Virus record (IMG/VR): IMGVR_UViG_3300002180_000027
Span: 1-40,871 of that record
Source of the DNA: a virus
Length of the DNA: 40,871 bases
Strand: one strand, 5' to 3'
Positions within the stretch are counted from its first letter, which is position 1, and the number at the start of each line of letters is the position of its first letter. The notes under the pieces were generated by a model. It made no database searches. It saw only the letters and a list, made by a program, of their open reading frames with translations, and was not told the DNA's origin. This document shows positions 32,914 to 39,631 of this stretch, in pieces. The translations under genes were made by a program, and so were the position numbers.

Positions 32914-33546
32914 TTACCTATCCTCAGCCAGCATCAATATAAAATCTTTTGACTTTTCCCATAAATCAGCAGACACCTCTCCATCCATTTCTATTAGCTT
33001 CTTTCTACTTATTTTAGACCACTGTTTTATTGTTAGCTGTTTACAGCCTATTTTAATATGGTTATCCGTGATTGTTACATGGTAGTGGTTTGAACTTATC
33101 GTTAATACTTTTGAGGTAGCTTTAGCATTGCCAGACACCCGAGCATTGCCAGACACCCAAGCATTGCCAGACACCCAAGCATTGCCATACACCCAAGCAT
33201 TGCCATACACCCAAGCATTGCCAGACACCAGAACATTGCCAGACACCCGAGCATTGCCAGACACCCGAGCATTGCCATACACCCAAGCATTGCCATACAC
33301 CAGAACATTGCCAGACACCAGAGCATTGCCAGACACCAGAGCATTGCCATACACCCAAGCATTGCCAGACACCCGAGCATTGCCAGACACCCAAGCATTG
33401 CCAGACTGACTTAAATTACTCTCAGATTCTAACCACCCACCAACATCACCCACTGAAACAGATAAAAACGCTGTAACGCAAACTATCTGCCTTAAGGTAA
33501 TACCTGCAACAATTTTTTCTTTTCCGTTAAACTTGTACTTATTCAT
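32914..33546 (-). CDS. NAxVxG hexapeptide-repeat (beta-helix-like) phage protein
   Basis: A 210-residue protein when started at the ATG at 33546 (GGAG 8 nt upstream, overlapping the previous stop). Residues 1-45 (NKYKFNGKEKIVAGITLRQI; DVGGWLESESNLSQ) are a conserved phage cap. About 16 hexapeptide units [SY]GNA[WRLV]V follow (about 48-140), forming a regular coil or small beta solenoid. The C-terminal domain (HYHVTITDNHIKIGCKQLTI, then KQW) is also conserved. The function is unknown. The 18-bp DNA repeat makes copy-number change by slippage likely. Longer non-ATG N-terminal extensions overlap the upstream gene and are unlikely. Confidence 0.65.
   Translation of the reverse strand: MNKYKFNGKEKIVAGITLRQIVCVTAFLSVSVGDVGGWLESESNLSQSGNAWVSGNARVSGNAWVYGNALVSGNALVSGNVLVYGNAWVYGNARVSGNARVSGNVLVSGNAWVYGNAWVYGNAWVSGNAWVSGNARVSGNAKATSKVLTISSNHYHVTITDNHIKIGCKQLTIKQWSKISRKKLIEMDGEVSADLWEKSKDFILMLAEDR
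33124..33406 (-). repeat. 18-bp tandem repeat, 15 full copies plus a partial one
   Basis: On the plus strand the unit is agcattgcca[g/t]acacc[c/a][g/a], repeated 15 times and ending in a 13-nt sixteenth copy. Variation is confined to three positions, which change S/Y and W/R/L in the hexapeptide. The period keeps long open frames on both strands; those other frames are repeat artefacts, not genes. Confidence 0.9.
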
Positions 33547-33896
33547 TGATTTAGCTCCGACTGTCTGTGGTGAATATCCATACAATCTTCTGGCTCCACT
33601 TCCATTGCGTTGACCGCTTCGATATCTTCTATTTCTTCGAGAGCCTCTTCTATACAAGCGTTTATCTTGATTTTAACGTGTTTATTAATAACATCCTCCA
33701 TGCATTCATCTACTGCATACGCATCAATAAAATCACCAGTATCTACCATTCCACATAAATCACTTTTTATATGTTCGTAGCCTTCATCCAAATCGCCGGT
33801 AAGTAATTTTAAAAACTCTTGTGCCTTAGTAATTGATAGATTTGGCTGATACTCACCATCTTTAACAAACTGTTGGAATTTATCGAGCTTTCTCAT
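33543..33896 (-). CDS. Acidic hypothetical protein
   Basis: A 117-residue, strongly acidic helical protein (KAQEFLKLLTGDLDEGYEHI; CIEEALEEIEDIEAVNAMEV). It is the first gene behind the divergent promoter at 33941-33968 and is coupled to the repeat protein by an ATGA overlap. Acidic early phage proteins sometimes mimic DNA, but nothing specific is seen. GAGG-type Shine-Dalgarno (AGAGGAAAG) sits close to the ATG. Confidence 0.55.
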   Translation of the reverse strand: MRKLDKFQQFVKDGEYQPNLSITKAQEFLKLLTGDLDEGYEHIKSDLCGMVDTGDFIDAYAVDECMEDVINKHVKIKINACIEEALEEIEDIEAVNAMEVEPEDCMDIHHRQSELNQ

Positions 33897-33940: not shown

Positions 33941-33968
33941 AATATACTATCTTTGAAACATATTACAA
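33941..33968 (-). promoter_or_regulatory. Promoter of the recombination operon
   Basis: On the minus strand TTGTAA (33963-33968), 16 nt, TATATT (33941-33946), 45 nt before the 33896 start. The -35 box lies inside the first copy of the 22-bp direct repeat, so a protein bound there would block RNA polymerase. Confidence 0.5.
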
Positions 33969-34004
33969 GTATATTTTAAACTTATTACAAGTATATTTTA
34001 AACT
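33961..34004. repeat. Perfect 22-bp direct repeat, probable operator
   Basis: Two adjoining identical copies of tattacaagtatattttaaac plus t. A 22-bp spacing (about two helical turns) puts both copies on one DNA face, as expected for cooperative binding by RHH dimers. It lies between the divergent genes at 33896 (minus) and 34023 (plus). Confidence 0.65.
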
Positions 34005-34022
34005 TATTTAATCGGAGTGAAT

Positions 34023-34179: not shown

Positions 34180-34785
34180 TTACCCCCATTGATCGGCCAT
34201 GGCTTTACTAATTCCAGGATAGAATTTTGATCGCTCTTTTCCACTGCCACCACCTAACCAGTGTATCCGGCTATACTTCTTGCCATCACTTGAAATAATA
34301 TATTCTGGCTCTACCCATGTTTTTTCGTTAAACATATCTGATTGGGGGAAGTGTTCTAGTTTGGGTAGATTCTTTAACCATAAACAGGTTGCTTTAGGTT
34401 CTGGATCACCAAAGTAGTAAGGGTGAATGATTTGGTCGGGCTTTCTATATAGGTTACTCATTATCCCTATTGGGTTTTCCATGGCTATTTTTGGAATAGG
34501 CGCATTAACTAATTTCATAAAGAAGTCGATTGAGGCTTGCTGCCTACCGTCTTTTATCTTTTTTTCAAACCATGCTGCGCCACTAACCGCTAAATCTGTG
34601 CAAGGGGGAAAGGCTATCATCATATCCCAGTTATCGTTTATTATTTCTAATACATCGCCTTTAATGTGCCACCAAGGCTTCCCGCCGCTGCAATCCTGGA
34701 TATCACAGCTATAAGCTTCATGGCCTCTTCGCCTAAACTCCTTACAAACAGCTTGAGACTCTTCGCAGGCCAAAATAACCCTCAT
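34180..34785 (-). CDS. C5-cytosine-methyltransferase-like protein
   Basis: A 201-residue protein. MRVILACEESQAVCKEF (motif I region), SCDI (motif II acidic), AFPPCTDLAVSGA with the PPC catalytic-type cysteine (about 58-70) and AMENPIGIMS (motif VI, ENP rather than ENV) follow a short phage 'DNA cytosine methyltransferase' family. The target-recognition and C-terminal motifs of full C5 enzymes are missing or reduced, so activity is uncertain. It could protect phage DNA against restriction. It is coupled to the 53-aa gene by ATGA. Confidence 0.65.
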   Translation of the reverse strand: MRVILACEESQAVCKEFRRRGHEAYSCDIQDCSGGKPWWHIKGDVLEIINDNWDMMIAFPPCTDLAVSGAAWFEKKIKDGRQQASIDFFMKLVNAPIPKIAMENPIGIMSNLYRKPDQIIHPYYFGDPEPKATCLWLKNLPKLEHFPQSDMFNEKTWVEPEYIISSDGKKYSRIHWLGGGSGKERSKFYPGISKAMADQWG

Positions 34786-37167: not shown

Positions 37168-37593
37168 TTAAAAATCATGATTCTTACGTAATTTCGCTAA
37201 TCCGTCTTTTGCAAATTCTTTGTATTCTTCTTGAGTGTGAGCTGCAATCTTTGGTTTGTATGGTCGATACGCCTGCTCATTGACTCGAGGTTTCTCTTTT
37301 TGCGACCATTTAATAAACTGGCCAATTGATGGAAAAAACGGGCTGCTGTGGCTTCTAGCGCCCTTTAACCCTAAATTGATTTTCTCTTGTGTTGTGATTT
37401 TTTCGTCAATTAAAGTCTCGAGCCATAACTCCTTAGTCTCGAGATATTCTTTCTCGGTCTTGAAGTTTTGCCGCCATGCTGGAAAGGTTAACTTTAAAGC
37501 CTTAAAGATTTGGTTAATAATATCCGCGCTCTCTAAAACCATGCTAGATTCTGATATTTCTTTGTCGAATTCGTTTATTAGTGATTTAGTCAT
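37168..37593 (-). CDS. Lambda P-like replication protein (helicase loader)
   Basis: A 141-residue protein. ADIINQIFKALKLTFPAWRQ (about 23-42), then TEKEYLETKELWLETLIDEK and SSPFFPSIGQFIKWSQ are hallmarks of the lambda P family, which delivers host DnaB helicase to the phage origin. It is shorter than lambda P (233 aa), with a basic C-terminal tail (KPKIAAHTQEEYKEFAKDG). It directly follows the O-like gene, sharing one base. There is no phage DnaB here, consistent with use of the host helicase. Confidence 0.75.
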   Translation of the reverse strand: MTKSLINEFDKEISESSMVLESADIINQIFKALKLTFPAWRQNFKTEKEYLETKELWLETLIDEKITTQEKINLGLKGARSHSSPFFPSIGQFIKWSQKEKPRVNEQAYRPYKPKIAAHTQEEYKEFAKDGLAKLRKNHDF

Positions 37594-38261
37594 TAGAAAG
37601 TCCTATCTGCCAATTTAGCGGCCCAACCAGTGCTCGAGTCATCAAAGCTTGGCTCGTTTTTATTAAAGTTTGATTTTATCCATTCCGCCTTAAATGATTT
37701 CCAGCCTCTTAATTCCCACTCAGTTAGTATTTGGTCATTAGTTAGGCCTAGCTTTCTTGCTGCACAAAATTCTTTAGCTAGGCCATTAATGACTCTTTGC
37801 GTGATAACGCCGCCTTTATTTTTTTTCCTTATCCTAGAAACCTCGAGCACTTCTGATTCAGACATAGTTAAATAAGTAAAATCCAAATCGTGAGCTATTA
37901 TCTTTTTACTCTCCTCTGTCTCTACTCTACTCTCCTCTGGTGCGTCAAGTTGCGGACATGGATTTATTTCTTGGTTGTCATGTGGTTGGCATGTGGTTGT
38001 CAAGAACCCTAACTCTATGAATTTATTGATATTTGGTTGCTTATCTAGCATGGCCATTCGCTGGATCATCTTTGGACTGTCTGGAATTTCGCCGTTTTTG
38101 TCAGCAGCAAGTAACCACATTGAAACTAGCTGACCTTTTTCAGAATCAGTTAGCTCGACCCATTGCTCGTTGGATAATAAATTGCGGTAAACTTTGATCC
38201 ACGGAGGAGTGCCGCGGTCTTTTCTAAAGGTCTGCCAAGCACTCCAATTAGTAATTAACAT
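37593..38261 (-). CDS. Phage replication initiator/replisome organiser-like protein
   Basis: A 222-residue protein. The N-terminal region (GTPPWIKVYRNLLSNEQWVE, LTDSEKGQLVSMWLLAADKN, GEIPDSPKMIQRMAMLDKQP) is the winged-helix domain common in phage replication proteins of the O/DnaD-like type. An Asp/Glu-rich linker follows, then a helical C-terminus (NDQILTEWELRGWKSFKAEW). It is expected to bind the origin and recruit the P-like loader coded next. The ATG at 38261 overlaps the NinH-like stop (TAATG); a TTG six bases earlier is less likely. Confidence 0.65.
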   Translation of the reverse strand: MLITNWSAWQTFRKDRGTPPWIKVYRNLLSNEQWVELTDSEKGQLVSMWLLAADKNGEIPDSPKMIQRMAMLDKQPNINKFIELGFLTTTCQPHDNQEINPCPQLDAPEESRVETEESKKIIAHDLDFTYLTMSESEVLEVSRIRKKNKGGVITQRVINGLAKEFCAARKLGLTNDQILTEWELRGWKSFKAEWIKSNFNKNEPSFDDSSTGWAAKLADRTF

Positions 38262-38458
38262 TAGCAAGTCTGATTATTATTTCTGGTTGATACCAATAGC
38301 TGCCAAACACCATTAACCATTCTTATTTGATGGTATTCGCCCTCAAGATCCGCCATGTATTTTCTAAGCGTGTTTCGACTAATTTTTAGCGATCTAGAAA
38401 GCTCAGACTGGTTTTGATGAAAATGTATGCTGTTTAGCAAATCTGTTACAGTTTCCAT
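38261..38458 (-). CDS. NinH-like Fis-type HTH protein
   Basis: A 65-residue protein. NQSELSRSLKISRNTLRKYM (about 17-36) is a Fis-like helix-turn-helix, followed by DLEGEYHQI. Lambda NinH shows the same order ('NQTEVARRLKCSRGTVRKYV...'). It may be an architectural or regulatory DNA-binding protein. It is the first gene behind the promoter/operator at 38487-38515 and is coupled to the initiator gene. AAGGA lies about 8 nt before the ATG. Confidence 0.65.
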   Translation of the reverse strand: METVTDLLNSIHFHQNQSELSRSLKISRNTLRKYMADLEGEYHQIRMVNGVWQLLVSTRNNNQTC

Positions 38459-38486
38459 ATTTAATCCTTATAGTTGGTCTGCGCTA

Positions 38487-38515
38487 AATATATACTGCAT
38501 AGTATAAATAATCAA
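38487..38515 (-). promoter_or_regulatory. Promoter with an overlapping palindromic operator for the replication genes
   Basis: On the minus strand TTGATT (38510-38515), 17 nt, TATATT (38487-38492). The spacer holds an inverted repeat, TATACT-N4-AGTATA (38491-38506), a typical operator size. A half-site GCAGTAT occurs again at 38529-38535. A repressor bound here would block the O/P-type genes. Confidence 0.55.
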
Positions 38516-38589
38516 CAACTTAAAGCGTGCAGTATTCAATTTTATTTGTGTGGACAGAATATAAAATGTCGTAATGACTGATAATAAGT

Positions 38590-38870
38590 GTTTAAGAACC
38601 TTATTCCGGCTTTTACGGCGTTACCCTGGAAGGTTTCTGTTGCGTAGGTCCCACACAACAACGCTTGATACTACATGTATTCTATTAAACACTGTAAACC
38701 TGCTTAGGAGAGCGATTTAGACAAGTTAGGTTGAGTTTACGCATAGCCTTGGCATTACTTGCAAATCCTTACACAATGAATAATTACTCTGTGTATCCGG
38801 GTGCAACTCAACTACCACTAAATCACTCTATTAAACAGGCTTATGTTTTCTGAAAGGCATAAAAGCCCTT
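38590..38870 (-). ncRNA. Large structured gene-free region, probable minus-strand structured RNA
   Basis: No gene is visible in 38516-38871. The minus strand can fold into a long rod: AAACA/TGTTT (38844-38848 with 38687-38691), AAGCCTG/CAGGTTT, a 12-bp stem (38818-38829 with 38709-38720), an 8-bp stem (38805-38812 with 38730-38737) and an inner TACACA/TGTGTA hairpin (38770-38795). A separate hairpin (38853-38870) follows the upstream stop, and AACCTT/AAGGTT closes another domain (38596-38636). Three stems contain a pair that is G-U in minus-strand RNA but would be A-C in plus-strand RNA. An origin of replication is the alternative. Confidence 0.5.
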
Positions 38871-38871
38871 A

Positions 38872-39276
38872 CTATTTTACCCCCTCCTCTTCCTTTTGCA
38901 AATGCTTAACTGCCATTGCGTATATTTCTTTGATTGTGGTCCAGCTTACCGGCACATCTTGCGGAATATCTCCAGCACCTCCACATGTTTCGCATATTTC
39001 ATCGTCGCGAATATCTTCAAACGCTCCATCGCAATCAGGACACTGGACGGGTATGCTTTCATGGAACTCACCAATCAACAGCGCTTTAGCCCCATTCTCC
39101 GCGGTTAGCTCGCTTGGCATTGGTATCCACTTCTCTTTGTTCAGTACAAAAGACACATTTTTACATGCTGTACTATGTATAACCTTTTTAGGTTTGCCGT
39201 TGCAATATTCAGCAGCTTGACGCATCTGTTTTTTGGTAAGGTCTTCGGTTTTAACTATGTCATAGGTGTTACTCAT
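38872..39276 (-). CDS. DnaJ-type zinc-finger phage protein
   Basis: A 134-residue protein. CPDCDGAF (about 80-87) and CETCGGAGD (about 96-104) form a DnaJ-like CxxCxG zinc site. The N-terminal half (DLTKKQMRQAAEYCNGKPKK; NVSFVLNKEKWIPMPSE) is a conserved phage domain. The C-terminal helix (WTTIKEIYAMAVKHLQKEEE) may mediate contacts. It is an early gene of unknown role, possibly binding nucleic acid or unfolded protein. Confidence 0.65.
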   Translation of the reverse strand: MSNTYDIVKTEDLTKKQMRQAAEYCNGKPKKVIHSTACKNVSFVLNKEKWIPMPSELTAENGAKALLIGEFHESIPVQCPDCDGAFEDIRDDEICETCGGAGDIPQDVPVSWTTIKEIYAMAVKHLQKEEEGVK

Positions 39277-39280
39277 TACA

Positions 39281-39631
39281 TTACCCCTTATGCTTTAAAC
39301 TGTGGTTGTAGATTTCGGTTAGCTTGTTTTTAGCTGCTCTAATTCGCGCCTTAATATTCGTCTCTTGCCTATGTAAATCCGACAACCTTTTTTCCTTGTC
39401 TCTTATTTGGCTATCTAACGTTTGATTTCTCCAGACTATGTTTTGTTGTTTATTAGCCCATTTATACATATAATCGAAGGCGTCCATTATCTTTCCGCAT
39501 CCGTCACATTCTAGACTTCTAGTGTGCTCATGAACTATTATCGTACCGTGAGCGCAACCATAAACAGTTGATCTTTTAGGCGATAAACCAACATTACCTA
39601 TTTGATGGATGTTGTTTTTCTCCTTACTCAT
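39281..39631 (-). CDS. Zinc-ribbon plus coiled-coil phage protein
   Basis: A 116-residue protein. VYGCAHGTIIVHEHTRSLEC, then DGCGKIMDAFDYMYKWA (about 23-59), contains two Cys/His ligands and CDGCG, a zinc ribbon seen in small early phage proteins. A coiled coil follows (DKEKRLSDLHRQETNIKARI, then RAAKNKL). It overlaps the next upstream gene by 4 nt. The function is unknown. Confidence 0.6.
   Translation of the reverse strand: MSKEKNNIHQIGNVGLSPKRSTVYGCAHGTIIVHEHTRSLECDGCGKIMDAFDYMYKWANKQQNIVWRNQTLDSQIRDKEKRLSDLHRQETNIKARIRAAKNKLTEIYNHSLKHKG

Follow-up and report, generated by a model that had tools for sequence, protein, structure and literature searches.

The widest gene-free gap of a tightly packed phage genome probably holds a real, so far uncharacterised, strand-biased structured RNA of the early operon. 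The window analysed is a single virus record of 40,871 nt, from a phage whose packaging is of the P22 type. The large terminase is a 66-70% match to those of Vibrio phages 199E37-1 and PVA1 and a 63% match to those of Aeromonas phage 4_4512 and Shewanella phage ZP9. The minus strand is the coding strand for almost all of its genes, including those on both sides of the gap (Table 1). An earlier note on this DNA had described a gene-free region of about 410 nt upstream of NinH/O/P-like genes. The region is 413 nt in length and has no convincing open reading frame from the stop of the gene at 39276-38872 to the start of that at 38458-38261, and the naming of the downstream genes is borne out by matches to PF06322, phrog_678 and PF06992.

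The ninH-like gene immediately precedes O and P, with an overlap of a few bases with O. Its protein has matches in E. coli phages (Nil3 and Stx phages), where ninH has another position, next to the Q region. Upstream of the O-like gene in the relative 199E37-1, the genes follow one another within 53 and 75 nt, and therefore the gap is not universal among such phages.

Table 1. Features of the gap and its flanking genes, in window coordinates
Feature	Position	Strand	Basis or remarks
Gene-free region	38459-38871	-	413 nt, zinc-finger-like gene to ninH-like gene, both on minus strand
Structured RNA core, predicted closed fold	38605-38868	-	z -5.5 minus, -1.9 plus; GC 0.41
Forked rod	38697-38841	-	Inverted repeat I1; predicted pair list; z -5.8 minus, -4.0 plus
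Rod helix, 10 bp	38841-38832/38706-38697	-	Predicted fold
Rod helix, 12 bp	38829-38818/38720-38709	-	Predicted fold
Rod helix, 3 bp	Between 12- and 8-bp helices	-	Predicted fold
Rod helix, 8 bp	38812-38805/38737-38730	-	Predicted fold
Two apical rod arms past 8-bp helix	38804-38761 and 38758-38741	-	Predicted fold
Helix P1, 5' strand, GGCUUUUAUG	38858-38867	-	Pairs with 38608-38617 in predicted fold
Helix P1, 3' strand, CGUAAAAGCC	38608-38617	-	Pairs with 38858-38867 in predicted fold
Small hairpin 2	38672-38696	-	Predicted fold; alone at background
Hairpin 3 (38660-38651/38647-38638) and small side hairpin (38634-38623)	38618-38664	-	Alone at background
Promoter-like TTTGCA-17-TAAAAT	38874-38902	-	9/12 consensus matches; predicted +1 ~38867
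Promoter-like TTGATT-17-TATATT	38487-38515	-	Upstream of ninH-like gene
Operator-like palindrome TATACTGCATAGTATA, 6-bp arms	38491-38506		Over the 38487-38515 promoter-like site; read from sequence
Related half-site TGCAGTAT	38528-38535		Of the operator-like palindrome; read from sequence
Upstream gene, DnaJ-type zinc-finger segment	38872-39276	-	Pfam, sub-threshold
ninH-like gene, Fis-type HTH	38261-38458	-	Pfam PF06322, E 3e-10
Replication initiation O-like gene	37593-38267	-	phrog_678, E 4e-10
Replication protein P, helicase loader	37168-37593	-	PF06992, E 5e-25

Fold stability and strand bias

Folded as minus-strand RNA against shuffled controls, the check that had been proposed for it, the gap is more stable than its shuffles. 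The whole 413 nt has a predicted energy of -110.9 kcal/mol (z -3.9), which none of 100 shuffles equals; the plus strand gives z -2.4. A core, whose limits were set after the fold was seen so that the unbiased figure is that for the whole gap, folds at -87.7 kcal/mol on the minus strand (shuffles -62.6; 0 of 200 as good) and at -65.1 kcal/mol on the plus strand (9 of 200 as good). Its excess stability over shuffles, -25.1 kcal/mol, tops that of all 314 control segments of 260 nt tiled over both strands of the same phage (mean -1.1, sd 4.6, best -15.9). The G+C content is 0.41 in the core versus 0.28 in the tail that follows it (38459-38604). Pairing of the core with this tail brings a gain of -3.1 as against -2.1 +/- 2.0 with shuffled tails; the tail's share in the fold is non-significant and the core is therefore a self-contained unit. 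A refolding switch involving the downstream sequence was set aside, as the tail gain is no larger than with shuffled tails.

The excess of minus- over plus-strand stability is -16.6 kcal/mol for the core, beyond the most extreme of 157 control segments (-14.8; sd 4.9). As modelled, this favours, short of proof, a minus-strand RNA under selection rather than an inverted repeat in DNA. The earlier note had drawn attention to G-U pairs that favour the minus strand, and correctly so: 7 of the 51 pairs of the rod are G-U on that strand versus one juxtaposed A-C. The count is weak when taken alone because predicted folds select G-U pairs. Significance of the rod on the plus strand as well is expected of any inverted repeat.

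The fold signal comes mainly from the 145-nt forked rod, whose energy is reached by 0 of 200 shuffles. A multi-stem rod with stems of 7, 12, 8 and 6 bp had been proposed from inspection. The rod itself stands and the proposal comes close, its 12- and 8-bp stems being exact, but the succession is 10, 12, 3 and 8 bp, after which the rod forks. The two separate hairpins also proposed do not rise above background, as the 92 nt beside the rod (38605-38696) folded alone give z -1.2. Helix P1, of 10 bp, closes the ends of the core, and 4 of 200 end-shuffles fold as well. It is lost in the 413-nt fold, where it competes with other pairings; a fold with P1 enforced has -107.2 versus -109.0, or 1.8 kcal/mol worse. 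In these predicted structures the rod is solid, P1 plausible and the side hairpins unproven. An exact 11-nt direct repeat, TCTATTAAACA, is present at 38681-38691 in hairpin 2 and at 38827-38837 in the rod; a search of viral contigs for paired copies of it gave unrelated matches only.

Transcription signals and a possible free RNA

The predicted +1 of the promoter-like site at 38874-38902 coincides with the first base of P1. This is the sole extra support for the site, as its match is at chance level: five sigma-70-like sites are found in the region versus 3.1 expected by chance. Near-identical 13-mers, TTGCAAATCCTTA and TTGCAAATGCTTA, are found at 38759-38771, in the apical rod, and at 38896-38908, spanning the -35 of this putative promoter. 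The promoter-like site upstream of the ninH-like gene lies ~90 nt beyond the core, not directly at the end of the element as had been thought. Two candidate leader peptides, MPFRKHKPV from 38860 and MRKLNLTCLNRSPKQVYSV from 38744, are both short and unsupported, and a nut/boxA site was likewise rejected, boxA-like strings being found in the window only at chance frequency.

A transcribed minus-strand RNA is the class of explanation best, if partly, supported, because the predicted fold energy is strand-asymmetric, the position in the early operon is co-directional and a promoter-like site is found at the 5' end. The earlier note had preferred a transcribed RNA to a cruciform, and the same evidence favours it in this respect. 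Most probably the element is structured and noncoding, and either stands free or acts in cis as a processing or leader element. Among the kinds it had listed, a simple or intrinsic attenuator is contradicted by the finding of no terminator-like site (a G+C-rich hairpin with a trailing U run) in 38200-39400, and a transcribed origin finds no support in a gap without DnaA boxes or iterons. The element is antisense to no likely gene in the window.

The chances appear even that the element is a structured noncoding RNA of ~260-280 nt that is expressed early and set free as a stable molecule of its own. Such an RNA would be made from the minus strand early in infection, either in the early (replication) operon or from a promoter inside it, and its transcription would start near 38867. 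The forked rod would be its defining part, and the two ends may pair and thereby close the molecule. It may be released by a nuclease that processes the transcript at the rod, or by Rho-dependent termination downstream. The RNA would act by its shape, through binding of a protein, another RNA or a host factor, and not as an mRNA. Several points weigh against a free RNA. No homologue was found and hence no covariation, and no Rfam family; in the predicted fold the rod alone is individually significant, the 3' hairpins not and P1 weakly so; the promoter-like site matches no better than chance allows, and the 3' end is not marked by an intrinsic terminator.

Homologues were sought in several ways. 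Rfam 15 gave no match at the gathering threshold with the window and none at E up to 5 with 38400-38950. By blastn, neither 50,697 phage records nor 72,556 plasmid records gave a match to the element. Exact-seed scans of viral contigs returned chance matches only, with unrelated flanks and no covariance-model score. Near-identical records are excluded from the sequences searched, such that absence of close relatives is not implied. The covariance model, based on this one sequence, was applied to 87 records (the window among them), to genomes of 369 Gammaproteobacteria and 398 Pseudomonadota, and to the loci retrieved. It recovered its own record at 343 bits as a positive control and had no convincing match in the 86 other phage and host records or the ~767 bacterial genomes; one marginal fragment of 14.7 bits (E 0.09) is taken as chance. 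The O-like protein led to 22 loci, none with the element, and had no match in genome contigs. The protein of the upstream gene and the NinH-like protein led to none, and there is no second copy in the phage. A new class of ~260-nt phage noncoding RNA, closed by end-pairing, with a forked rod, expressed early beside the replication genes and affecting, in trans, replication or defence of the host or of the phage, can be proposed only tentatively.

Alternative explanations

The element may instead act in cis, as an intercistronic part of an early polycistronic mRNA, i.e. an RNase III processing site or a stability or pausing element that separates the upstream genes from ninH-O-P. We consider this less likely than a free RNA, although much fits it: the element is co-directional with and between genes of a single transcription unit, a single long rod (10+12+3+8 bp) is all that is significant by itself, no terminator intervenes between rod and ninH, and ninH-O-P have a promoter-like site of their own downstream. 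However, such a site would need neither a fork nor a closing helix nor a length of 264 nt, and P1 and the promoter-like site at its first base are left unexplained.

A function at the DNA level is improbable, whether the inverted repeat is taken for an origin of replication, a site bound by protein or a small mobile element whose ends are inverted. The element adjoins the O and P genes, it contains inverted repeats of 26 and 15 nt, and the rod is significant on the plus strand too. The repeat arms, however, are imperfect and 97 nt apart, which is not cruciform-like, and the fold energy is strand-asymmetric. No DnaA box (TTWTNCACA) is found in the gap and no iteron array in 37590-39280, nor does a second copy in the phage or any match mark a mobile family. 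Origin and DNA-cruciform readings are weaker than a transcribed RNA, and nothing points to an origin. An integron attC site and a miniature transposon were rejected for want of a recombinase context, a second copy and, by eye, a target duplication; a retron was rejected as, by eye, there is no reverse transcriptase among the listed proteins.

Least probable is a functionless sequence, either decayed or an inverted repeat arisen by chance, which would accord with absence from relatives and with side hairpins at background, but not with 0 of 200 shuffles reaching the energy of core or rod, nor with the core being the most stable segment of the phage relative to shuffles.

Two other repeats were observed in the window. 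An AT-rich 22-bp tandem repeat, TATATTTTAAACTTATTACAAG, of 2.8 copies is present at 33948-34008, between the minus-strand genes 33543-33896 and 34180-34785. It resembles iterons or the sites of a regulator, and could be a candidate origin. An 18-nt repeat of 15.7 copies at 92% (33124-33406), inside gene 32914-33657 on the minus strand, encodes six-residue repeats (GNAWVS...) of the YdcK beta-solenoid type (PF18836). From its sequence the gene product looks recently expanded and is possibly length-variable.

Comparison with known systems

As a free RNA the element would be a new orphan among the phage noncoding RNAs of early infection, a class of which very few members are understood; as a processing element, it would be of an ordinary kind but an unusually large example. 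Early mRNAs of T7-like phages have intergenic RNase III processing sites. The element resembles these in having a long irregular hairpin in the intercistronic space of an early operon, but differs in that it is forked, is 145-264 nt in length and has a possible closing helix and its own promoter-like site. The put antitermination RNAs of HK022-type phages and the lambda nut sites are under ~100 nt and lie directly after early promoters. These too are structured RNAs in early transcripts, of lambdoid-type phages, but the element is larger than ~100 nt and the window has boxA-like strings only at chance level. GOLLD and ROOL are large structured RNAs of phages and prophages whose function is unknown; many GOLLD RNAs are >800 nt and they are often near tRNA islands (PMC12286853). 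Although the element is only ~264 nt, with no tRNA found in the window and no Rfam match even at E 5, it is similar to GOLLD and ROOL in that 38605-38868 appears to be a large, gene-free, structured RNA encoded by a phage.
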